From an uncultured Pseudomonadota bacterium (GTDB taxonomy: Bacteria; Pseudomonadota; Gammaproteobacteria; Steroidobacterales; Steroidobacteraceae), in contig CAISHQ010000092.1 in the NCBI GenBank assembly GCA_903885195.1, positions 1 through 45,078 of the forward strand: a stretch of DNA of 45,078 nt. The letters are read 5' to 3'. Made by a program: the position numbers and the translations under genes. How positions within the stretch are numbered: position 1 is the stretch's first letter; each line of letters begins with the position of its first letter. The notes under the pieces were generated by a model that saw nothing but the letters and a program-made list of their open reading frames with translations, had not been told where the DNA came from and made no database searches. Below are positions 33,722 through 44,720 of the stretch, one piece after another.

Positions 33722-34029
33722 ATTCCCTCCCACTGGAAGCTGACCCCATCCAGCCTGCACCGGCGGTCCCACGAGGGCGTCGCCCGGAATTCACCGACGA
33801 CCCGATGCTCGATCGGCTCTACTCCGTGACGCTCGCATTGGTGTCGGAACTGGCGGTTACGCGTACACGGCTCGATACCGTCGAGCGGCTACTCGCCGAG
33901 CGAGCCGTACTGCCCACGGCCGACGTAGAGGGCTTCAAGCCCGATGTGGCGCAGGCCACCGCGCGCGCCGAGTGGCAGCAGGCTTATCTCGAGCGCGTGC
34001 TGCGCGGCTTGCTCAACGAACCCGCCTGA
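33718..34029 (+). CDS. Small hypothetical protein coupled to the methyltransferase
   Basis: 103 residues with its ATG overlapping the methyltransferase TGA. The start is Pro/Glu-rich (NSLPLEADPIQPAPAVPRGRRP); the middle is helical (MLDRLYSVTLALVSELAVTRTRLDTVERLLAE) and so is the end (EWQQAYLERVLRGLLNEP), with no signal peptide. I recognise no family. Stop-start overlap suggests a 1:1 partner of the methyltransferase. Its 3' end overlaps the minus-strand gene at 34013 by 17 bases. Confidence 0.7.
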   Translation: MNSLPLEADPIQPAPAVPRGRRPEFTDDPMLDRLYSVTLALVSELAVTRTRLDTVERLLAERAVLPTADVEGFKPDVAQATARAEWQQAYLERVLRGLLNEPA

Positions 34030-34543
34030 CTTTTGCGGCCCGACCTGAGGCCGCCACCAGCGTAAAGGAGCCGAGTGCACCCGGCTTAATCACTACGCTC
34101 TCACCACTTTTCAGGCGCAGCGTCACGCCGCTCGCAAGCTGCTGCCATTGCTGTCCATTGTCGAGGCTGACTCGGAACGTGCCGTTGCCGAGGTAATCCA
34201 CGGCGTCGACGCGAGCGGTCAACTCGGTGAGATTCGAAGCGAGTGCCTTGGTCTGCTCGTCGCGAGCTTCCTGCGCGATCTTGCCGCGGTAGCCGAACAG
34301 CGCCTCGTCGGTTTTCGGGACATCGCTTTTCGATGCAGTGCCGACCTGCTCAATGCGGAACAGTCGGTCGTAGCAGGCGAGCCGCTGTCCCGTGTCGGCG
34401 AGACTGCCGCAGCGTCGGGCGTCGGTGACGAGGCTTGCGTCCTGCGGTGCATTGGGGGATGTATCAGCCACTGCGGTGACGGCCGCAGCACACAGCAGTG
34501 CCGCGACAGACAGCACGCGGGCGTTGCGATAGGTTGGTTGCAT
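34013..34543 (-). CDS. Periplasmic protein of a conserved unknown family
   Basis: 176 residues with a signal peptide (RVLSVAALLCAAAVTAVADT). It has the segment RRCGSLADTGQRLACYDRLF, a Cys-containing motif shared by many small exported gamma/betaproteobacterial proteins, and a C-terminal beta-rich region (YLGNGTFRVSLDNGQQWQQL..., LRLKSGESVVIKPGALGSFTLVA, AKVRRVR) of the type seen in those proteins. The ATG at 34543 starts the signal peptide and is 11 bases after the hydroxylase stop, so the two are probably one transcript. No function is known to me. Confidence 0.75.
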   Translation of the reverse strand: MQPTYRNARVLSVAALLCAAAVTAVADTSPNAPQDASLVTDARRCGSLADTGQRLACYDRLFRIEQVGTASKSDVPKTDEALFGYRGKIAQEARDEQTKALASNLTELTARVDAVDYLGNGTFRVSLDNGQQWQQLASGVTLRLKSGESVVIKPGALGSFTLVAASGRAAKVRRVR

Positions 34544-34554
34544 CAGGTTCACGG

Positions 34555-35541
34555 TCAAATCTCCCACGCCGGCGGTGCGCCGTTGTACCGATCGATGCCG
34601 ACGAACAATTGCGTTACCCATTCACGTTCCTGTGCCGTGAGCTCCGGGCGCCAGATTTCAAAGAGCAGTATTACCCGCGTCTCTTCCGAGTCGTTCCACG
34701 CTTCGTGTTCTATGGTGTCGTCGAATGCCCAGGTGACGCCCTTGCGCCACTCGCGCACTTCGTTGCCGACGCGGAATCGGCAGCCGGTGGGCACGATCAA
34801 CGGCAGATGACAAATCAGCCGCGTGTTGACGAGGCCACAGTGCGGCGGAATGTGCGCACCGGGTCGCAGCAGCGAGAACAGTACGGATGGTGAGCGTTGC
34901 GGCAGCGAGCCGAGCGGGACTTTTTGTAGTGCTGCCATGGTGCGCGGACAACGGCGAGCGTTCTCGGTGACTACGCTACCGTTTTTCCAAAGATAAAACG
35001 CGCTCCAATCCGGGTTATCGAGCATGCCGGCTTCAGCCTTGCGGGGGCGGTTAGGATCGCCCTGCACGTAGGGCTTGAAGTCGTTGGGCGTACGCAGCAA
35101 CTCGAGCAATTCGTCACGTATGGCGTCGGTGTGCGATTCGAGTTCGGCAAACCACGGGAACGGGGCGCGATCGTAGAACTGGATTTGCGGCAGACCCGGG
35201 AAAAAGTAGTAGCGGGGATTCTGGAAGAAAATCTGCTTGCGACCGAGCACGATATCGAGCGACTCGGCGAAGCGGGGGCTCGAGGCGCCAGCGCGATAGC
35301 CCTGCGCAGCCAAGTGATCGGTCAGGTACTGCTCATACTTCCGTGCGTAGCCGGCGAGGACGGTGCGCACACGTTCGACTTCGCTCTCAAGCGTCGGGTT
35401 ATATGGCGCCGCCGCGGCCGCGCGCAGGCCAGCTTGGTAGAAGGCTCCGGCCGAGCGCGCGTCGCCCGAGGCAGCGAGTTCGTCACCGCGACGGATGAGC
35501 GCGAGCGGGTTGGCGGTCGTATTTGGGGCGGAGGCGCTCAT
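34555..35541 (-). CDS. Aspartyl/asparaginyl beta-hydroxylase-like 2-oxoglutarate dioxygenase (A)
   Basis: 328 residues, no signal peptide. The catalytic part has YYFFPGLPQIQFYDRAPFPWF, PPHCGLVNTRLICHLPLIVPTGCRFRVGN and FDDTIEHEAWNDSEETRVILLFEIWRPELT. His234 and His279 are the likely iron ligands (this family lacks the usual acidic third ligand) and Arg289 the 2-oxoglutarate binder. The N-terminal ~70 residues (LALIRRGDELAASGDARSAGAFYQAGLRAAAA) look like one TPR-like helix pair. The enzyme family hydroxylates Asp/Asn residues or small molecules. The gene diverges from its paralogue B and is upstream of the periplasmic protein at 34013. Substrate unknown. Confidence 0.9.
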   Translation of the reverse strand: MSASAPNTTANPLALIRRGDELAASGDARSAGAFYQAGLRAAAAAPYNPTLESEVERVRTVLAGYARKYEQYLTDHLAAQGYRAGASSPRFAESLDIVLGRKQIFFQNPRYYFFPGLPQIQFYDRAPFPWFAELESHTDAIRDELLELLRTPNDFKPYVQGDPNRPRKAEAGMLDNPDWSAFYLWKNGSVVTENARRCPRTMAALQKVPLGSLPQRSPSVLFSLLRPGAHIPPHCGLVNTRLICHLPLIVPTGCRFRVGNEVREWRKGVTWAFDDTIEHEAWNDSEETRVILLFEIWRPELTAQEREWVTQLFVGIDRYNGAPPAWEI

Positions 35542-35641
35542 GCTAGAGTTTGAGTCGAGGTCGGCCTGCCGCAGTATCCATCGCGTGGCGCAGCGGGTAA
35601 AGCCGGTCGCGACTTACTCGATATCAGGGAGCCTTCAGCCG

Positions 35642-36835
35642 GTGGAGCGCACAACTTCCGCACGGACGAGTGCCGAGCTCGAGCAGGCGGCGGGCCGTGC
35701 GCTGCAGGCGGGTGATTTTGCTACGGCGCGCGGTTTGCTCGATGCCTGGGTTCGGCAGGAGCCCGGTAATCTCGGCGCCTGGTTGCGTCGCGCGGCGGTG
35801 TGTCGGCAGCAGGGCGACACTGCGCAGGCCTTCGAATCGCTAAGCAGCGCCCTGAAGATCGACCCGCGCTGTTTTCCCGCTCTGCTCATGGTGGCGACGC
35901 TTCTTGAGCGTGAGGGGGACCTGCCCGCGGCCGCTCGTCAGTACGACATCGCGATCGCCCAGGCGCCGCCCGACGATAGGCTCGATGCCGCCACGCGCGC
36001 AGCGCTTGAGCATGGTCGCCAATTGGCGGCCAAGCACGCGCGCGAGCTGCGCGATTTCATCCATGCGGAACTCGATGTCGTTCGCGGTGAGTGCACAGCG
36101 AGCGAGCAGCGGCGAGTCGAAACTTTCGTTGATACAACTCTGCGCCTGCGCAAGCGTTACGTGCAGGAGCCGATGGAGTACTGCTACCCGGGGATGCCCT
36201 CGATCGAGTTCTACGATCGCGCGATGTTCCCCTGGATCGCGGAGCTCGAGGCCGCGACGCCTGATATTCGTCGCGAGTTGCTCTCGTTGCTGGCTGAGGG
36301 CGCAGAGGGATTCTCACCTTACGTGAACTATGCCGAGCACATGCCGCTCGATCAGTGGCGCGAACTCAATCGCTCACCGCGCTGGACGGCCTGGCATTTC
36401 TACGAACGCGCGGAGCCTATTGCCGAGCGCTGGGCGCGCGCGCCTGCGACTGCCGCTGCATTTTCGCGGATACCGCAGGCCAAGGTGCCGCTGCGCTCGC
36501 CCACGGCCTTGTTTTCCGCGCTGCGCCCGAAGACGCGTATTCCGGCGCATACGGGGATCGCGAATTTCCGGCTTCTTGTGCACCTTGCCCTCGTTATTCC
36601 GCCCGGCTGCGGCTTTCGCGTGGGCGGTGAGAAGCGCTCCTGGAGCGAAGGGGAGGCCTGGATCTTCGATGACACCATCGAGCACGAAGCCTGGAACGAC
36701 AGCGATGAGTTGCGCGTGATCCTGATCTGCGACATCTGGAGCCCGTTGCTCTCGCCCGCCGAGCGCGAGGCGATCACCGCAGTGATCCGCGCCCGTGATG
36801 CCTACACGGGCATCGTGCCGCGCATGGATGGCTGA
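35642..36835 (+). CDS. TPR-containing aspartyl/asparaginyl beta-hydroxylase-like dioxygenase (B)
   Basis: 397 residues. The N-terminal TPR region (about 5-110; ELEQAAGRALQAGDFATARGLLDAWVRQEPGNLGAWL, YDIAIAQAPPDDR) is followed by the hydroxylase domain: YCYPGMPSIEFYDRAMFPWI, PTALFSALRPKTRIPAHTGIANFRLLVHLALVIPPGCGFRVGG and FDDTIEHEAWNDSDELRVILICDIW, with both iron His present. It is a clear paralogue of protein A. The GTG at 35642 was chosen because AGGGAG (35626-35631) lies 10 bases upstream; an ATG at 35540 is possible, but the extra 34 residues look non-domain-like. The TPR part probably binds a protein substrate or partner. It converges on TBDR-4. Confidence 0.85.
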   Translation: MERTTSARTSAELEQAAGRALQAGDFATARGLLDAWVRQEPGNLGAWLRRAAVCRQQGDTAQAFESLSSALKIDPRCFPALLMVATLLEREGDLPAAARQYDIAIAQAPPDDRLDAATRAALEHGRQLAAKHARELRDFIHAELDVVRGECTASEQRRVETFVDTTLRLRKRYVQEPMEYCYPGMPSIEFYDRAMFPWIAELEAATPDIRRELLSLLAEGAEGFSPYVNYAEHMPLDQWRELNRSPRWTAWHFYERAEPIAERWARAPATAAAFSRIPQAKVPLRSPTALFSALRPKTRIPAHTGIANFRLLVHLALVIPPGCGFRVGGEKRSWSEGEAWIFDDTIEHEAWNDSDELRVILICDIWSPLLSPAEREAITAVIRARDAYTGIVPRMDG

Positions 36836-36892
36836 CGGGCTGCCCCCCCCCGCGCTCGTATCTCGACGCGTCATCTATCGCGGCGACTACTC

Positions 36893-36928
36893 AAAAAAAA
36901 GCGGCGGTTCCCTTTCGGAAACCGCCGC
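36893..36928 (-). terminator. Terminator of TBDR-4
   Basis: A 9-bp stem (36901-36909 with 36920-36928) and a ten-base loop are followed on the minus strand by eight T (36900-36893). It lies 36 bases after the TBDR-4 stop. Confidence 0.9.
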
Positions 36929-36964
36929 TGGTGTCAGCCCCTCGCGGGGTCCGACAGGCTCGTC

Positions 36965-39910
36965 TTAGAACGCCACCTTGACGCGGGCGAACAAGTAACG
37001 GCCCAGAGCGTCGTACGTCTGGGGATACGTGTTGCCGTTGCCGGTGGTGCCGACGCTTGCGTTGATCGAGGGATCGTTGTCGAGGACGTTGTTCACGCCG
37101 ATCGTGGCAGCAATCTTCTCGTTGAACACGTACGTGCCGGCGAGGTCGAAGTAGCTCTCAGCCGCAAACGACCGGTCGATACGGGTCGCCGCCTGCTGGT
37201 AGCCCTCGACGCTGCCGTAGTAGCGCCAGGTCAGAGCGAGGTCGAGGTTCCACGGGGTCTCGTAACCCACGCGGAACTGGTGACGCCACTCGGGGTTCGG
37301 GGTGCCGCACGCGCCTGCGAAGAAGCCCACGCAGTCATACTTGGCGAGACCCGGACCCGGTTCCGTTGACAGTTCATCAAGGAGGGTGCCCGTGAGGTTG
37401 AAGTTCAGGCTGCCCGCACCGATGTCGAGGCCCGAGTAACTGAGGTTGAGATCCCAGCCCTTGGTGCCGATCGAGCCGATGTTGATCGACAGATCTTCAA
37501 CGTAACCCGAACCCAACCACAACTGGCCGAGCGCGTTGCGCTTGATGCGCGAGCACGCCGAGGCGTCGTTGTTGTTGTAGCAGGCCTTGATGGTGTTGTT
37601 CGGACCGAACGAGCTGACGGTTTCATCGACCTTGATGTCGAAGTAGTCAACCGAAGCCACGAAGCCCGGCAACGCCGACGGGGTGATGATGATGCCCGCC
37701 GTGAAGGTGTCCGACTTCTCCGGCTGGAGGTTCGGGTTACCACCACCCAACAGCTGGTACTGACCCGCCGGGCTGTCGATCGCATCCTTGCCGATCTGCG
37801 CCGCCGGCACGCCGGTGGCCAGACACTGGGCCGCGGTCGCCTTGGCGCCACTGACCGTGGTGCCGATGGCGGCACCGCAGGGATCGCCGTCGATGTCGAA
37901 CAGACCAAAGCCCTGGGCGGTGAACAACTCGATGATGTTCGCCGCACGGACCGCACGCTGGAAACTACCGCGAACGCGGAAGTCAGACACCGGCGACCAC
38001 TCGAGACCCAGCTTGTAGGTGTCGGTGTTGATCTTGCCGTAGTCCGAGTAGCGGTAGGCCGCATCGAGGCTCAGGCTCTCTGCGAAGGTCTTGCCCTGCA
38101 CGAGCGGCAGACGGCCTTCGAAGAAGAGGTCCTTGACCTGGGTCGCACCCTTGAGGCCGTTGGTCGGACCACCGGTGCCCGAGAGGCCAGCGCTCGCGAG
38201 CAGCGCATCGGTGGTGTTCTCCAGCGAGTCACGACGGTATTCGGCACCGAAGGCCACCTGGGCGCCTTCCTCAGCCGCCGGCAGCTTGACGCCGTAGCCG
38301 TTCAGATCGCCCGTGAAGGTCAGCGTGTAGACCTCCTGGTCGACCGTGCCGGTCTGCAGGCCCGGGGCCTGCAGGTAGTCGAGGGCGGCTTGCGTCACAG
38401 CACCGGTCTTGAACGCGTTGTAGGGCTTGCAATCCGAATCCGAACCACCCGGCAGGGCGGAGCGGCAGGTCGGCACGCCGTTGAACAACACCACGTCGAG
38501 CGCGTTCTTGATGCGATCGATCACGAAGTAGTTCAGCGTCTGCTGATCGGCCTTCAGGGTCGAACGCTGCGCGGCGAAGTCGTAGTTCCACGCGTCGTTG
38601 ATGTCGCCCCGCACGCCGACGACGGCGCGGTAGGACTGGTTGGTGAACGACTGCTGACGACCACCGCCTTCGGTGTTGCGACGACCGATGTACATGGTCG
38701 TGCTTTCCTTGGCAGCGATCTTGGCGGGCGTACAACCGATGGCAGCGAGGTTCGCGGTCGGGATGAACGGGTTGTCGCAGTTGATGGTCGAGGTGTCGAG
38801 GAAGATACCGCCCGGGGCGATCTGCGCGATCGAGCGGTAATCCGTGAACATCAACTGGGTGTAGACGTCGGCCTTGTCGTTCAGCTCGTAGTGGCCGCTG
38901 GCACCCATGGTGTAGCGGTCAGCCGGACGCAGGAAGTGGTTGGTCGGACCGAAGTTGTACTGGTCCGTCGCACCACTGAATCCGCGCCAGGTCGAGCCAT
39001 CCGAACCCACCGTGAAGTTGTAGGTGGCGAAGTCCGTGAAGCGACCCGGTGAGGCCGTGGAAGAACCACCGCAAGTGAACGACGGCGGCGTGCCGGCTTG
39101 TCCACCGAGGGAGCAGGCCGAGAAGTCGCGATCGCGCTGCAGGATCTCGTCGTTGGTCTGGGCATTGAAGTACGCGACAAAATTGCCGCGGCCATCGCCC
39201 GAGTTCACGCCGACGATGATGCCACCCTCGCGGCCGAAGCCGTCGGTGACATTGCCCGGGGGCAGCTTGAACTGCGCCGGGTTGGTGGCGGCACGACCGG
39301 CAATGACCTGCCGAAGGCCCGTGGCGCCTGGGCCACCGAAGCCGTTGTTGTGCTGGTAGAAGCTGTACTGGCCCGAGATCTCCACACCTTCGAATTCTTT
39401 CTTGGTGATGAAGTTCACGACGCCCGCGATGGCGTCCGAACCGTACACGGCCGACGCACCGCCGGTGAGCACTTCGACGCGCTCGACGAGCTGGGTCGGG
39501 ATCTGGTTGAGGTCAGCCGCTGAGTTGCTGACACCGCCGTAGGGCATGCGGCGACCATCGACGAGCACCAGGGTGCGCGAGGAGCCGAGGCCGCGCAGGT
39601 TGACCGTGGCAGTACCCGAGGCGCCGTTGGCGACCGTGGCGTTCTGCGCGGCAAAAGCCTGCGGCAGCTGGTTGATGAGATCCTCGATACGGGTCACACC
39701 TTGCGTGGTGATGTCCGCCGCAGTGACCTGCGTGATCGGGCTCGATGATTCAAGGTTCGCCTGCTTCAGGCGCGAACCGGTCACGACGACCGTTTCGAGC
39801 GATTCAGCAGTGGCCGCTTCTTGAGCCAGTGCCGGCGTCATGCTCGCCGGAACCAGCCCCAGAATCAGCGCACGCCGAACGGCGAGTGCGATATTGGAGT
39901 TGGGTTGCAT
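36965..39910 (-). CDS. TonB-dependent outer-membrane receptor (TBDR-4)
   Basis: 981 residues. The signal peptide (RRALILGLVPASMTPALAQE) is followed by ETVVVTGSRLKQANLES as TonB-box region. The plug has INQLPQAFAAQNATVANGAS, TVNLRGLGSSRTLVLVDGRRMPYGG, and VEVLTGGASAVYGSDAIAGVVNFIT. A large barrel ends in FARVKVAF with the terminal Phe. It is related to TBDR-1 by the SRTLxLxxGRR plug. The ATG has GAGGGAA just upstream. It sits between hydroxylase B and sulfotransferase 1, and its own terminator shows it is a separate transcript. Its ligand could be the product or substrate of the surrounding modification genes (inference). Confidence 0.97.
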   Translation of the reverse strand: MQPNSNIALAVRRALILGLVPASMTPALAQEAATAESLETVVVTGSRLKQANLESSSPITQVTAADITTQGVTRIEDLINQLPQAFAAQNATVANGASGTATVNLRGLGSSRTLVLVDGRRMPYGGVSNSAADLNQIPTQLVERVEVLTGGASAVYGSDAIAGVVNFITKKEFEGVEISGQYSFYQHNNGFGGPGATGLRQVIAGRAATNPAQFKLPPGNVTDGFGREGGIIVGVNSGDGRGNFVAYFNAQTNDEILQRDRDFSACSLGGQAGTPPSFTCGGSSTASPGRFTDFATYNFTVGSDGSTWRGFSGATDQYNFGPTNHFLRPADRYTMGASGHYELNDKADVYTQLMFTDYRSIAQIAPGGIFLDTSTINCDNPFIPTANLAAIGCTPAKIAAKESTTMYIGRRNTEGGGRQQSFTNQSYRAVVGVRGDINDAWNYDFAAQRSTLKADQQTLNYFVIDRIKNALDVVLFNGVPTCRSALPGGSDSDCKPYNAFKTGAVTQAALDYLQAPGLQTGTVDQEVYTLTFTGDLNGYGVKLPAAEEGAQVAFGAEYRRDSLENTTDALLASAGLSGTGGPTNGLKGATQVKDLFFEGRLPLVQGKTFAESLSLDAAYRYSDYGKINTDTYKLGLEWSPVSDFRVRGSFQRAVRAANIIELFTAQGFGLFDIDGDPCGAAIGTTVSGAKATAAQCLATGVPAAQIGKDAIDSPAGQYQLLGGGNPNLQPEKSDTFTAGIIITPSALPGFVASVDYFDIKVDETVSSFGPNNTIKACYNNNDASACSRIKRNALGQLWLGSGYVEDLSINIGSIGTKGWDLNLSYSGLDIGAGSLNFNLTGTLLDELSTEPGPGLAKYDCVGFFAGACGTPNPEWRHQFRVGYETPWNLDLALTWRYYGSVEGYQQAATRIDRSFAAESYFDLAGTYVFNEKIAATIGVNNVLDNDPSINASVGTTGNGNTYPQTYDALGRYLFARVKVAF

Positions 39911-40122
39911 TTGTTTCCCTCGTTGTTACGACACTAGTGTTCCTGCGCAGAGCCGATGACCTCCGGAGGCAATTCCGGCGCGGACAGGTGCACGAATGCT
40001 ACCGAATTTGTCGCGGGAATGAAATTGTTGTAGCAAAAACACAACAACGAGCCGCGAGGCCGTCTCTTTTCGGCGACGACCATCCCCGGCCGTGGGCTTC
40101 GACCTTTATGATGCGCGCCACC
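39911..40122. promoter_or_regulatory. Divergent control region between TBDR-4 and sulfotransferase 1
   Basis: 212 bases with no gene. Palindromes ACACTAGTGT (39931-39940) and CCTCCGGAGG (39960-39969) and the inverted repeat TTGTTGT/ACAACAA (40025-40047) make it unusually rich in possible protein-binding sites. I see no clear -35/-10 pair. Confidence 0.5.
40025..40047. promoter_or_regulatory. TTGTTGTA inverted repeat upstream of TBDR-4
   Basis: TTGTTGT (40025-40031) and ACAACAA (40041-40047) are perfect 7-bp inverted arms with a 9-base spacer. 17 of 23 positions match the site at 13300-13322 upstream of TBDR-3. Confidence 0.5.
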
Positions 40123-42108
40123 ATGAGCACGCTGACCCTTGATCAGGCCCTGGACCGCGGACTGCGTGCGCAGTCGGCGCGTGACTTCGCGGTAGCCGAA
40201 CAGGCGTACCGGGAGGCTTTATCGATCGCCCCCAACGATCCGGAGACCAACAGCCTGCTGGGACTCGTGCTCGCTCAAGCGGGGCGGCTCGAGGAGGGCG
40301 TGGTACTGCTGCAGCGTGCCGTCGAGCTCGACCCGGACGAGAGTGCCCTGCAGATGAACCTCGCTGGCGGTCTCGCCGAGGCCCAGCGCTGGCGCGACGC
40401 GCAGCAGGTGTTGCTGGCCTTGATCGAGCGCTGGCCGGTGCAGGGGCCCGCATGGACGCGCCTCGGTGATGCCTGCCTTGCGCTCGAAGAGCGCGAGGCT
40501 GCGTTGCTGGCCTGGCGCCGGGCCCACGAGCTTGATGTCGACGCCGTCGAGCCCGCGCGCAAGCTCGCGACGCTGGCTCGAGAAACGGGTCAGCGCGATG
40601 AGGCCGTTGCCGTACTCGAGCAGACGCTATCGCTACGCCCGACGGAGCCGACGCTGCTCGCGGTGCTTTGCGAGGTGCTCGTCGATCAGCGCGCTTGGGG
40701 GCGCCTGCAAGCGGCGGCGCAGTCCTGGGCCGGCGGTGCCCGTAACGAACCGCTGCCTTGGTACTTCATCGCGCAGTCGCTGTTCGAGCAGGGTCGGCAC
40801 CGCGAAGCCGTCGAAGCGTTTGCGAACTATCTCTCGCTCGGTGCACACGGTGTGGCGGATCTTGCGGCCTTCGCCGGCCTCTGCCTGCACGCCCACGACT
40901 ACTCGGGCGCGGAGGCTGCGCTCGCCGCGGCGCGCGAGATCGACGCCCAGCATCCCGAAGTGCTCGCGAAGAGTGCGCTGCTGCACATGTACTTTGGGCG
41001 TTTCGAAGAAGCGAAGTCGGCCTGTCTCGCGTGCCTCGAGCGCGAACCGCTGCATGTGCCCGTGCACACCTTGCTTTCGCGCCTCTCGCGTGGCGAGTTG
41101 TCGACTGAGTCGCTACAACGCATGGAGCAGGTGGCCGGCACCGTGGCGGCACCGTTCGATCTGCGTATTCCGGCGGCCTTCGCCGTGGCTCACGCGTTCG
41201 ATGCAATGGACGACACCGACAGCGCGTTTGTCGCCTATGCACGGGCGCATGCCCTGTCTGCCGAGCGCGATCGGCTGGAAGGGCGCGTTTACGATCGTTC
41301 GCTCGTCGAGTCCCGCACGCGTCGGTTGATGGAACTCGACTGGGACGCGCCGTTGGTTGAGCAGGCCGGTGAGGCGCGGCTGATTTTCGTCGTCGGCATG
41401 CCCCGCTCGGGCACGACGCTCATCGAAGCCATGCTCGGCGCCCATCCGCAGGTTCAGGCGAATGGCGAGTTGCTCGGCATGCAGGCGCTGCTCGCGCAGT
41501 TCGAAACTGAGGATCGCGCCGCGCGCCGCATCGATACGGCCGGGCTGCAGGCGATGGCGGCTCATTACCGCGCCGAATTGCCGAGAGCGACGGGTAAGTC
41601 GCACGTTACCGACAAGCATCCGCTGAATTTTCTGGCGGTCGGGCTCATTCTCACGCTGTTCCCGAACGCCGTGATTGTGCATACCCGCCGCGATCCGTTG
41701 GAGACCGGCTGGTCGGTTTATCGGCAGGAGTTCAGCAAGCGCTGGTCCTTTACGCATCAGCTCGAAGACATCGGGCATTTCTACGGCGAGTACGTGAGGC
41801 TGATGGATCACTGGGAGCGACTGTTCCCGGGGCGTATCGTCACCGTGCAGTATGAGCAGTTTGCTGGCGAGTTCGCGGCCGCTGCGCCGGCGCTTGTTCG
41901 CTCTTGCGGTCTGGACTGGGATGAGCGGTGCCTTGCTTTCGCCGGCGCACCGCAGCCGATCGCCACCTTCAGCACGGTGGAAGTCCGTCGGCCCGTCAGC
42001 GTTCGCCGTGGCCGCGCGGCGCTCTATGCAACCCACCTCGAGCCGTTGCGTCAGATTCTCGAGGCCGCGGGTGTTGATCTTCAGACCGGGGCTTCGGTCA
42101 ACGCCTGA
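40123..42108 (+). CDS. TPR-repeat sulfotransferase 1
   Basis: 661 residues. About ten TPR repeats occupy roughly 5-330 (for example RDFAVAEQAYREALSIAPND, TNSLLGLVLAQAGRLEEGVV). The C-terminal sulfotransferase domain (about 415-650) shows the PAPS 5'-phosphosulfate loop VGMPRSGTTLIEAMLGAHPQV near 424, then SHVTDKHPLNFLAVGLI and VIVHTRRDPLETGWSVYRQEF, the 3'-phosphate region. Such proteins transfer sulfate from PAPS to sugars, lipids or protein tyrosines; the TPR part probably holds the acceptor or partner. The ATG at 40123 fits the first TPR; ATGs at 40108 and 40111 are alternatives. It overlaps sulfotransferase 2 by 28 bases at their 3' ends. Confidence 0.9.
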   Translation: MSTLTLDQALDRGLRAQSARDFAVAEQAYREALSIAPNDPETNSLLGLVLAQAGRLEEGVVLLQRAVELDPDESALQMNLAGGLAEAQRWRDAQQVLLALIERWPVQGPAWTRLGDACLALEEREAALLAWRRAHELDVDAVEPARKLATLARETGQRDEAVAVLEQTLSLRPTEPTLLAVLCEVLVDQRAWGRLQAAAQSWAGGARNEPLPWYFIAQSLFEQGRHREAVEAFANYLSLGAHGVADLAAFAGLCLHAHDYSGAEAALAAAREIDAQHPEVLAKSALLHMYFGRFEEAKSACLACLEREPLHVPVHTLLSRLSRGELSTESLQRMEQVAGTVAAPFDLRIPAAFAVAHAFDAMDDTDSAFVAYARAHALSAERDRLEGRVYDRSLVESRTRRLMELDWDAPLVEQAGEARLIFVVGMPRSGTTLIEAMLGAHPQVQANGELLGMQALLAQFETEDRAARRIDTAGLQAMAAHYRAELPRATGKSHVTDKHPLNFLAVGLILTLFPNAVIVHTRRDPLETGWSVYRQEFSKRWSFTHQLEDIGHFYGEYVRLMDHWERLFPGRIVTVQYEQFAGEFAAAAPALVRSCGLDWDERCLAFAGAPQPIATFSTVEVRRPVSVRRGRAALYATHLEPLRQILEAAGVDLQTGASVNA

Positions 42109-43613
42109 CGCCAAGGTTCGAGTTCGGTCGCGTAATTCTGCCAGCGCCCCAAGGAGCGGCGGTGCAGCGGCTCGCGCACCTGCCACACGCTCGCCGTTTT
42201 GACCAGCGAACGCTGGCGATAGAACTCAAGACAGGCGGGCTCCCACGGTAGCTCCAATGCATCGAGTAGGCGACGCACTTCGGTCTCCGGTGAGCGCACC
42301 AGCGATTCGTAGTCCACGTCGATGAGATCTTGCGAATACACGGTGTGCCAGTGGCGCATCAATCTTTGGTATTCGCGGATGTGATGGGTGATGTCGCCAA
42401 GATCGGTGGCATACGCCATCGCATGATCGAGATGCAGGAACCAGATCGACAAGGCGTTGTCGAGCGCGTTGCGGCGCGTATGCACGATGCGCGTCTGCGG
42501 CAACATGGTTTTGATAAGGCCGATGTGATGGAAATTGTCCGGTCTTTTGTCCGTAATGTATTGCGCACCCGGATGAATTCTTTTAATGCCTTGCAGATAC
42601 GCCGTCGCGGCGACGCTGATGCGGGCGGCATCGAGCGATCTGCAAGCCTGCGGGTAGGGTTGGAAATGCTCCTGCACGATCGCGGGCAGCAGCGGTAACT
42701 CGCCACCGCGGCGTACCTGCGGATGGGCGGCGAGGATTTGCTCCACGAGTGTCGATCCCGAACGGAACATGCCGCAGATAAAGATCGGTTGCGGCGACGG
42801 TGACGGCGCGACCGACTGCGACTGCAATCGCCCGGGCGTTGATTCCCCGGGCGCCTGCGTCGCAGCCGCTGCGGGAAATGCGGCGATCAGGGCGTCGACG
42901 TGGCGCGCGTAGGCGGCGCGGTCGTAGCGAGCTCCTGCGGCCAGTGCGCTCATGCGGCTGGCCGAATTGGCGGTGCGGTAGGCCCGCCAAGCTTCGGCGT
43001 ATTCGCCCACCGCATCGAGGGCGCGACCGAGTGCGAAGCCGAGTTCGGCACGCTGGGTCCACTCGGTGCCCGTGGAGGCGAGCGCCGCACGCAGGCGAGA
43101 AATCAGTGGATCGTCGGCGCGATCGATGATCGAAGCGTTGGTAAGCCGCGCGAGCGTCTCGGGGTGATCGGGTTGCAACGCGAGCGCGCGCTCGTAGGCG
43201 AGGCGTGCCGCCTCGCGCTCGCCGCGATCTTCATGCAGGTTGGCGAGGTTCAGCCATGCGGGCAGGTAATTCGGGTTGAGTGCAAGCGCGCGTTGCAACT
43301 CAGTTTCCGCAAGCTCCGCGCATTGCAGATCATCAGCGTAGATCACGCCTCGATTCAGATGCGCCTCTTCGGGGCCATCGAGCCCGAGTTCGAGCGCTCG
43401 GGCGTAGCTGGCGAGCGCCGCCTCCGGTTCGCCGCAGCGCCGCTGCATCCGCCCGAGGTTGTACCAGGTGTCGGCGAGGGCAGGCCATTGCCCGAGGACT
43501 GTGCGCAGTGTGCCGGCCGCCGCCGCCCAGTCCCCCGCTCGCTCCTGCTCTGCGGCTCGAGCGAGCAGACGCTCGGCCGCGGCGCGCTCCTCGTTCGCCG
43601 GGCGCTTGCTCAC
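42081..43613 (-). CDS. TPR-repeat sulfotransferase 2
   Basis: 510 residues starting at GTG, coupled to the DUF192 gene (GTGA overlap). About four TPR repeats are visible in the first 150 residues (NLGRMQRRCGEPEAALASYARALELG, NLANLHEDRGEREAARLAYERALALQPDH), then a linker rich in Ala/Pro/Ser (about 250-270). The sulfotransferase domain has the PAPS loop ICGMFRSGSTLVEQILAAHPQVRRGGE near 276, YITDKRPDNFHHIGLI, RIVHTRRNALDNALSIWF and a C-terminal YESLVRSPETEVRRLLDAL. It is shorter and only distantly similar to sulfotransferase 1, so the acceptors may differ. The 3' end overlaps sulfotransferase 1. Confidence 0.9.
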   Translation of the reverse strand: MSKRPANEERAAAERLLARAAEQERAGDWAAAAGTLRTVLGQWPALADTWYNLGRMQRRCGEPEAALASYARALELGLDGPEEAHLNRGVIYADDLQCAELAETELQRALALNPNYLPAWLNLANLHEDRGEREAARLAYERALALQPDHPETLARLTNASIIDRADDPLISRLRAALASTGTEWTQRAELGFALGRALDAVGEYAEAWRAYRTANSASRMSALAAGARYDRAAYARHVDALIAAFPAAAATQAPGESTPGRLQSQSVAPSPSPQPIFICGMFRSGSTLVEQILAAHPQVRRGGELPLLPAIVQEHFQPYPQACRSLDAARISVAATAYLQGIKRIHPGAQYITDKRPDNFHHIGLIKTMLPQTRIVHTRRNALDNALSIWFLHLDHAMAYATDLGDITHHIREYQRLMRHWHTVYSQDLIDVDYESLVRSPETEVRRLLDALELPWEPACLEFYRQRSLVKTASVWQVREPLHRRSLGRWQNYATELEPWRQALTEAPV

Positions 43614-44110
43614 CGGAAGGCGGAATGCAGCACTCGATCGCCGGCGCGGATGCCACGGCGTGCGGCCTCACCACCGCGCAACTCGAGGATGGCCTTGACC
43701 GGTACGTCCGGACCTACGGGGTCGAGTGAGTGCGGCGTCGTGTTGGCGAAGATCGCCACAATGCGTCCGCGCGCGTCGATAAACAGCATGTCGAGTGGGA
43801 TGTACGTGTTCTTCATCCAGAAGTACGACGGGCGCGGCGCTTCGTTGACGAACAACATCCCCTGGTCGGCGGGCAGATCGCGGACGAACATCAGTCCCTG
43901 GCGCTGACGCGAGGCCGTGTCGGCGATCCAGATGCGAAAACGATGGCTGCTGCCCTGCGTGCGAATGTCGAGCTCACCTTGCGGGTAGGTGGCGAGGTCC
44001 TGCAGCGGCGGATCGCCCATGCCGCCCTGGGCGGGCGCCCATGCCGCGCCCCCGCCGGCGAGCAGCAGCGCCAAGCCCAAAGCCGACATCCAGCGGAAGC
44101 GTCGATTCAT
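43610..44110 (-). CDS. DUF192-family exported protein
   Basis: 166 residues with a signal peptide (MNRRFRWMSALGLALLLAGG, then GAAWA). The DUF192 core is clear: FRIWIADTASRQRQGLMFVRDLPADQGMLFV, YFWMKNTYIPLDMLFID, and KAILELRGGEAARRGIRAGDRV. The family is small, beta-rich and of unknown activity; it is often found as an exported or membrane-linked protein. The ATG at 44110 gives the signal peptide. Its stop overlaps the GTG of sulfotransferase 2, so the two are translated together, which may tie this protein to the sulfation genes. Confidence 0.92.
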   Translation of the reverse strand: MNRRFRWMSALGLALLLAGGGAAWAPAQGGMGDPPLQDLATYPQGELDIRTQGSSHRFRIWIADTASRQRQGLMFVRDLPADQGMLFVNEAPRPSYFWMKNTYIPLDMLFIDARGRIVAIFANTTPHSLDPVGPDVPVKAILELRGGEAARRGIRAGDRVLHSAFR

Positions 44111-44234
44111 AGGCCCCGCAGCATACCCCGACCGACCCATGGAGGCCGAATCGGGCCGCGCCGCTCGCCAGAGTCAGCCGCAGGGGGTGACGGGGCCGAA
44201 AATCGGTCGCGACCTTGCTAGACTCAAGGCACTG

Positions 44235-44720
44235 ATGGACGGGCAAGTGCGCAAAGGGGTCTTACGTGGCGCGGCGATTGTCGTGCTGCCCTGCGTGCTT
44301 GCGGCCTGCGCCGCGTTCGGGCCGCGGCTCGAAACCCCGGAGTTGTCGATCGCGGGCGTCGAACTCGTCAAGGGCGATCTGTTCGAGCAGCGTTTCAAGG
44401 CGCGATTGCGCGTGCAGAACCCGAACAACGTCGAACTCGCTGTACGCGGCATTACCTACACGCTGGAACTCGGCGGCGAGGAGCTGGGCCGAGGGCTCTC
44501 CGGCAGCAGTTTCGTCGTGCCCGCGCGAGGCGAGGCGGAATTCGACATGCTGGTCACGGCCAACCTGGCGGGCACGCTGCTGAAAATCGTCGAACGTGCG
44601 CGGCGTGACGGTGGCCTGCCCGATGAGCTTGAGTACCACTTGCGCGGACAGGTCAAACTCGACCGTGGCGCCGTGCGTACCGTGCCCTTCGACGAGCAGG
44701 GCAAGTTGCGAATTCGTTGA
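44235..44720 (+). CDS. LEA14-like (LEA_2/WHy) lipoprotein
   Basis: 161 residues. The signal peptide ends in lipobox VLAAC (Cys25), so it is probably anchored in the outer membrane. The WHy/LEA_2 domain follows: ETPELSIAGVELVKGDLFEQRFKARLRVQNPNNVELAVRGITYTLEL, then GRGLSGSSFVVPARGEAEFDMLV. This fold occurs in plant desiccation proteins and many gammaproteobacterial lipoproteins; a direct role is not established. The next small frame begins 11 bases after its stop, possibly in the same transcript. Confidence 0.88.
   Translation: MDGQVRKGVLRGAAIVVLPCVLAACAAFGPRLETPELSIAGVELVKGDLFEQRFKARLRVQNPNNVELAVRGITYTLELGGEELGRGLSGSSFVVPARGEAEFDMLVTANLAGTLLKIVERARRDGGLPDELEYHLRGQVKLDRGAVRTVPFDEQGKLRIR

Follow-up and report, generated by a model that had tools for sequence, protein, structure and literature searches.

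A conserved cluster of AspH-type oxygenases and TPR-sulfotransferases around a TonB-dependent receptor

Gene content of the cluster

The window (the whole stretch of DNA analysed, 45,078 nucleotides from an uncultured Steroidobacteraceae bacterium) contains, between 34,555 and 43,613, two AspH-like oxygenases, one of them fused to TPRs, and two TPR-sulfotransferases that surround a TonB-dependent receptor (TBDR), all at the positions given in the initial annotation. P0001 (34555..35541, minus strand) is an AspH-type 2-oxoglutarate oxygenase that matches PF05118 with 166 bits and has no Pfam TPR match, and P0002 (35642..36835, plus strand) is a TPR-AspH fusion, with 138 bits to PF05118 in addition to TPR matches; its start is uncertain, being either an ATG at 35495, which overlaps P0001, or an alternative GTG at 35642. 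The receptor, P0003 (36965..39910, minus strand), carries PF07715 and PF00593 and falls within the receptor clade that is linked to these enzymes. The TPR-sulfotransferases, both with TPST-like catalytic domains, are P0004 (40123..42108, plus strand; TPRs and PF13469, 143 bits), for which the ATG at 40123 is, by eye, the likely start rather than the ORF start at 39745, and P0005 (42081..43613, minus strand; TPRs and PF13469, 149 bits). The DUF192 protein P0006 (43610..44140, minus strand, 108 bits) overlaps P0005 by four nucleotides, GTGA, consistent with the coupling of these two genes proposed earlier. A further gene, absent from that earlier list of parts, lies directly 3' of P0001 at 34013..34543 on the minus strand, with a likely start just past the P0001 stop, and encodes a small protein of the P0007 family. 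Judged by eye, P0007, the DUF192 protein and the receptor have signal peptides, and none is evident in the oxygenases and sulfotransferases, which are therefore presumed to be cytosolic.

Across the whole host genome, P0001 and P0002 are the only PF05118 matches, and two of the four PF13469 genes (P0004 and P0005) are found in this cluster. On host contig C49, a TPR-sulfotransferase gene starts immediately behind a same-strand receptor gene (L226:3833-8824); this receptor is weakly like P0003, and the pairing of sulfotransferase and receptor thus reaches beyond the P0003 clade. A receptor beside the sulfotransferase on host contig C172 (L004) was not reproduced on a longer stretch (L227), and that pair was therefore left uncounted.

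Relatedness of the enzymes to human protein-modifying enzymes

By sequence, the TPR part of P0002 matched TPR proteins, and its oxygenase domain was closest to human AspH structures (approximately 1e-24). The P0002 model (pLDDT 89.9) matched the oxygenase and TPR parts of human AspH with 3.2e-19 over 376 columns, the next oxygenase family following at 1e-5, and the catalytic domain alone gave a target TM of 0.83 against human AspH; the mutual placement of the two domains relative to the human enzyme remains undemonstrated, because the whole-chain rmsd was 14. H303, G305, H348 and R358 were invariant in 25/25 AspH-type sequences, with equivalence assigned through the human AspH alignment, and are also kept in P0001; we take them to be the two-histidine iron site, with Gly replacing Asp, and the 2-oxoglutarate arginine. 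P0002 therefore has in common with human AspH the combination of TPRs and a PF05118 oxygenase, the iron site and the 2-oxoglutarate arginine (P0001 all of these except the TPRs), but it is bacterial, has no membrane anchor by eye, and is linked to a receptor.

For the sulfotransferase domains of P0004 and P0005, the nearest solved structures were TPST1/2 (E 2e-8 to 4e-6). Arg24 (in the P-loop), Glu45, Lys94 and Arg119 were present in 74/74 sequences, these being what was left of 92 after anchoring and removal of duplicates; presumably, the conserved P-loop is PAPS-binding and Glu45 is catalytic. The P-loop and the Glu are shared with TPST1/2, whereas P0004 and P0005 are distant from these, fused to TPRs and apparently cytosolic. 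Since P0002 is nearest to human AspH and the sulfotransferase domains are nearest to TPST1/2, we read the substrate as probably a polypeptide.

PF05118 was the sole oxygenase family matched by the window oxygenases, which are not of the PiuC/YbiX (PKHD) type. Their best NCBIfam matches were to OlsC (104 bits for P0001 and 88 for P0002, cut-off 450) and to LpxO (57 bits each, cut-off 500), as would be expected if the hydroxylases acted on lipids in an LpxO/OlsC-like manner and the sulfotransferases then used the hydroxyl so formed, altering the outer membrane around the receptor. We consider this quite improbable: the scores are far under the cut-offs, the TPR architecture and the best solved-structure match (human AspH) speak against it, and PF05118 genes of the other class, from the same set of genomes, show no receptor linkage (1/6, a small set).

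Conservation of the gene neighborhood

Relatives of P0002 were collected in a scan; of 453, the best 80 were considered, which come from alpha-, beta- and gammaproteobacteria, with genes taken as open frames matched by HMMs from window proteins, without a gene caller. Within the stretches examined, a TBDR was found for 57 of these 80 best relatives (38 of the 47 having full 10-kb flanks), a sulfotransferase for 34, a P0007-family protein for 34, and a TPR-2OG-FeII_Oxy_5-type protein for 23, the HMMs of accessory families having been built from the same loci they were counted in. The remaining 23 had no TBDR over the score used, nine of them with full flanks, and one of the loci scored in this way (L081) carries a partial TBDR in another annotation. 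Five Nitrospirillum loci (L040, L041, L052, L056 and L066) carry a TPR-AspH gene for which no TBDR was seen inside 10 kb.

A second sample, not seeded with P0002, came from searching 60 genomes that belong to the taxonomic family for PF05118, which 32 of them had. Forty regions were picked by hand to cover the PF05118 matches of at least 88 bits, leaving out the window's own region and weaker matches as centres. A TBDR lay within 10 kb in 28 of the 34 TPR-AspH regions versus 6.0 expected from receptor density and rounded genome sizes; the resulting P of approximately 7e-17 ignores relatedness and is too small, because related genomes were treated as independent. Among the six TPR-AspH regions without a TBDR, five were incomplete because the contig ended or the chosen stretch did. 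Sulfotransferases were present in 24 of the 34. The other PF05118 class had a TBDR in 1/6 regions (1.4 expected) and a sulfotransferase in 0/6, one of the six (L156) being an AspH fragment cut off where its contig ends; the contrast between the two classes in TBDR linkage stands despite relatedness.

These data confirm the grouping as a real, conserved, receptor-linked module that is more than chance. Gene order in related genomes, the comparison put forward in the initial annotation, shows AspH, sulfotransferase and receptor together, and since the neighborhoods are conserved in other genomes, the outcome that was to refute it, namely that these genes never co-occur elsewhere, did not arise. 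The recurrence of DUF192 (see below) suggests that position alone can yield repeated proximity, as it would if the grouping were a positional accident or a hotspot without functional link, but the same families stay together over three proteobacterial classes while gene order and strands vary, and the association is limited to one AspH class and concentrated in two receptor clades, which makes such an accident very improbable.

A receptor clade associated with the enzymes

Receptors were surveyed in the 60 family genomes, with at most 14 candidates scored per genome, and P0003-like receptors (E up to 1e-30) were present in at least 51 of them. AspH and/or a sulfotransferase was found by 30 of the 38 listed receptors most like P0003 (E approximately 1e-109 or better), the other eight (L186, L191, L193-L196, L199 and L200) being enzyme-free in the stretches fetched. 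Neither enzyme was seen in the 27 regions L199-L225, which give no unbiased rate because they were picked among receptors outside AspH regions. In the receptor tree, whose loci were mostly fetched through AspH and thus form an AspH-biased sample, 66/73 members of the core clade (support 1.0) and 8/8 members of a second clade had AspH and/or a sulfotransferase in the same stretch. Four genomes (G006, G010, G018 and G045) have a core-clade receptor and no PF05118, with a TPR-sulfotransferase beside the receptor. Two core-clade receptors without AspH or sulfotransferase (L194:5642-8848 and L196:11259-14399) lie near large proteins that look RND-pump-like by eye, which hints at a metal-related sub-branch.

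If the receptor itself were the modified target, as the initial annotation had allowed, Asp or Asn columns should track AspH. They did not: for D/N-rich columns in 61 AspH-linked versus 12 other core-clade receptors, the best p was 5e-4, and 18/72 circular shifts did equally well. Candidate sulfation columns in core-clade receptors gave a best p of 0.0016, a value obtained without shift control. Earlier column lists were set aside as confounded by clade, one of them having used own-genome receptors, many partial, as background.

The P0007 companion protein

P0007-family proteins are of approximately 170 aa and apparently exported (signal peptide by eye), with a CxxxxRLxCYD region and a LDNGQxW beta-barrel-like C-terminal domain. 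The predicted structure of P0007 combines a helical N-terminal part with a confident beta-barrel-like C-terminal domain, for which structure searches returned no reliable match; P0007 itself had no Pfam match, and one relative scanned gave only a sub-threshold VasI match. Among 61 distinct members in the loci, 27 immediately follow AspH on its strand, 8 immediately follow a TBDR and 26 do neither. A family match was found in 32 of the 60 family genomes, and proximity was compared for 48 of the 56 listed matches: all 23 of the strongest homologues (at least 129.8 bits) were within 7 kb of a PF05118 match or a core-clade receptor, as were 7 of the 25 weaker ones, and for 6 more of the latter a different listed receptor lay no further than 5 kb away. 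The search for a conserved peptide gene suggested in the initial annotation thus turned up a conserved companion gene, but its product is a protein of some 170 aa, apparently exported, and not a recognisable Asp/Asn/Tyr-rich peptide.

Our second choice of substrate, doubtful at present, is the receptor itself or P0007, which the enzymes would hydroxylate on Asp/Asn and sulfate on Tyr or some other hydroxyl in the cytosol before export, either to make the receptor functional or to evade phages and bacteriocins. The enzymes appear cytosolic and are mostly TPR-linked, both types have protein-modifying human relatives, P0007 immediately follows AspH in 27/61 cases, and the position aligned to its N138 is N or D in 60/61 members. 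This N/D also persists at L187, L190, L192 and L203, loci in whose vicinity AspH was not found, and it resembles a beta-turn residue; together with the failure of receptor columns to track AspH, this weighs on the other side. The stronger claim that TonB-dependent uptake hinges on such pre-export modification by TPR-AspH and TPR-sulfotransferases is rather unlikely; if true, it would amount to a bacterial counterpart of the protein modifications of the animal secretory pathway, and would also explain the need of CciT for CciO (see below).

Proposed function and relation to known systems

Some loci point to peptide import. In Nevskia (L027), the genes for a TBDR, TPR-AspH, P0007, SBP_bac_5, two permeases and an oligo_HPY ATPase follow one another on one strand, and OppB-like genes were found in 10/80 loci, with Opp models built from those same loci. 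Because Opp genes are in line at L027, a peptide ligand is favored, at least in Opp-bearing lineages. Among the window ORFs and the recurrent families, no precursor peptide and no lasso or RiPP maturation genes were recognised, as judged without dedicated models.

Our first choice, which we hold tentatively and somewhat short of even, is that a receptor-dedicated cytosolic module modifies a polypeptide, most likely the ligand of the receptor. The cluster would then be a conserved functional unit built on one clade of large TBDRs, in which the receptor may import a ligand, probably a peptide or a metal complex carried by one, that an Opp-type ABC transporter would move over the inner membrane in some lineages. 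The apparently exported P0007-family companion would act in the periplasm, and TPR-AspH with its relatives, together with the TPR-sulfotransferases, would modify in the cytosol a polypeptide held by the TPR domains; this polypeptide would most likely be the ligand after import, or a peptide of that kind made by the cell itself.

We take the closest known system to be CciT-CciO and the module to be a variant of this receptor-plus-cytosolic-oxygenase kind. In Caulobacter, CciT depends strictly for its function on the cytoplasmic dioxygenase CciO, for which the authors of the study consider ligand synthesis, inhibitor removal or ligand oxidation, and pairs of a TBDR and a cytoplasmic Fe(II)/2OG dioxygenase (CciT-CciO, Fiu-YbiX, PiuA-PiuC) are broadly co-conserved (PMC12004947). 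The feature in common with these pairs is a TBDR adjoining a 2OG oxygenase that is cytosolic by eye. The module differs from CciT-CciO in that its oxygenases are AspH-type, one with TPRs, in the added sulfotransferases and P0007, and in its receptor, which does not look like a catecholate or siderophore receptor (P0003 scored 54 bits against the 223.5-bit TonB-siderophor cut-off, and was below cut-off for all 25 listed of its 27 NCBIfam matches). This bears on whether the enzymes might, in a PiuC/CciO-like manner, make or degrade an iron-binding small molecule, not a polypeptide, as the receptor ligand. The CciT-CciO precedent and a PF13640-type dioxygenase family present in the loci of 18 of the 80 best relatives (of 453) favor such a ligand, but given the receptor scores, and with no siderophore synthesis genes recognised in the cluster on inspection without a dedicated search, we find it unlikely.

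For Pontixanthobacter, another report lists consecutively numbered genes for lasso B2, a sulfotransferase, an aspartyl beta-hydroxylase, a second sulfotransferase, PqqD and asparagine synthase, the numbers suggesting that the genes are neighbors (PMC10040529). Compared with the lasso sets as given there, the window cluster has no lasso genes that were recognised without a dedicated search. Among the open-licence papers listed in the searches, none was seen to describe a TBDR/AspH/sulfotransferase gene set; term searches of PMC7142613, PMC3400609 and PMC1790865 gave no match to sulfotransferase or hydroxylase, and the passages of PMC9203511 proved unrelated. A receptor-linked hydroxylase/sulfotransferase module is thus apparently undescribed, in agreement with the initial annotation, which knew of no system of this make-up.

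Why some outer-membrane receptors need cytosolic oxygenases is a question raised for CciT-CciO, and to it the module brings enzymes of two types that resemble human protein-modifying ones, along with a conserved protein that appears to be exported. The module could bring to light peptide ligands of a new class, or a modification system specific to TonB-dependent uptake, and direct testing is possible because named cultured strains are among the carriers, for example Povalibacter uvarum DSM 26723 (L011) and Caulobacter ginsengisoli DSM 18695 (L047).

DUF192 and other recurring neighbors

The functional link that had been drawn from proximity is supported for the enzymes and the receptor by the conserved neighborhoods and the receptor clade, but DUF192 reads as a neighbor. 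It is found near the cluster more often than chance would lead one to expect, in 11 of the 34 TPR-AspH regions of the family genomes, and 19/51 strong DUF192 copies have a strong AspH match or a core receptor no more than 15 kb away; in 20/60 family genomes DUF192 is present without any of the strong AspH genes or core receptors listed, and for this reason we regard it as a chromosomal neighbor. At L214 it lies by a receptor without AspH and sulfotransferase, and on both counts DUF192 was set aside as a component; it looks like a chromosomal landmark. In the window, a LEA_2-domain protein comes after DUF192 (43610-44720), and a relative of this protein was seen in seven loci including the window, 7/7 with DUF192, and this recurrence suggests a conserved landmark where the cluster often sits.

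Clustering of the unassigned frames, with Pfam searches of representatives, gave TPR-2OG-FeII_Oxy_5 (PF13759), two families of the PF13640 type, a PF13661 oxygenase that we take to be OGFOD1-like, a Sulfotransfer_2 protein, another sulfotransferase-like family and a retropepsin-like protease. The recurring theme is one of oxygenases and sulfotransferases around the receptor.

Single loci add further neighbors. At L049:4768-5727, immediately behind a TPR-AspH gene, lies another PF05118 type that is shorter (54 bits), and L048:2799-4697 and L048:10045-12015, near a TPR-AspH gene, encode TPR proteins that by eye resemble OGT/SPINDLY-type glycosyltransferases, a possible third TPR-linked modification. 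A Peptidase M3 gene lies by the cluster at L145:2406-4670, with relatives in L142, L143, L145, L147 and L153, and may be a landmark or else a partner in peptide degradation.
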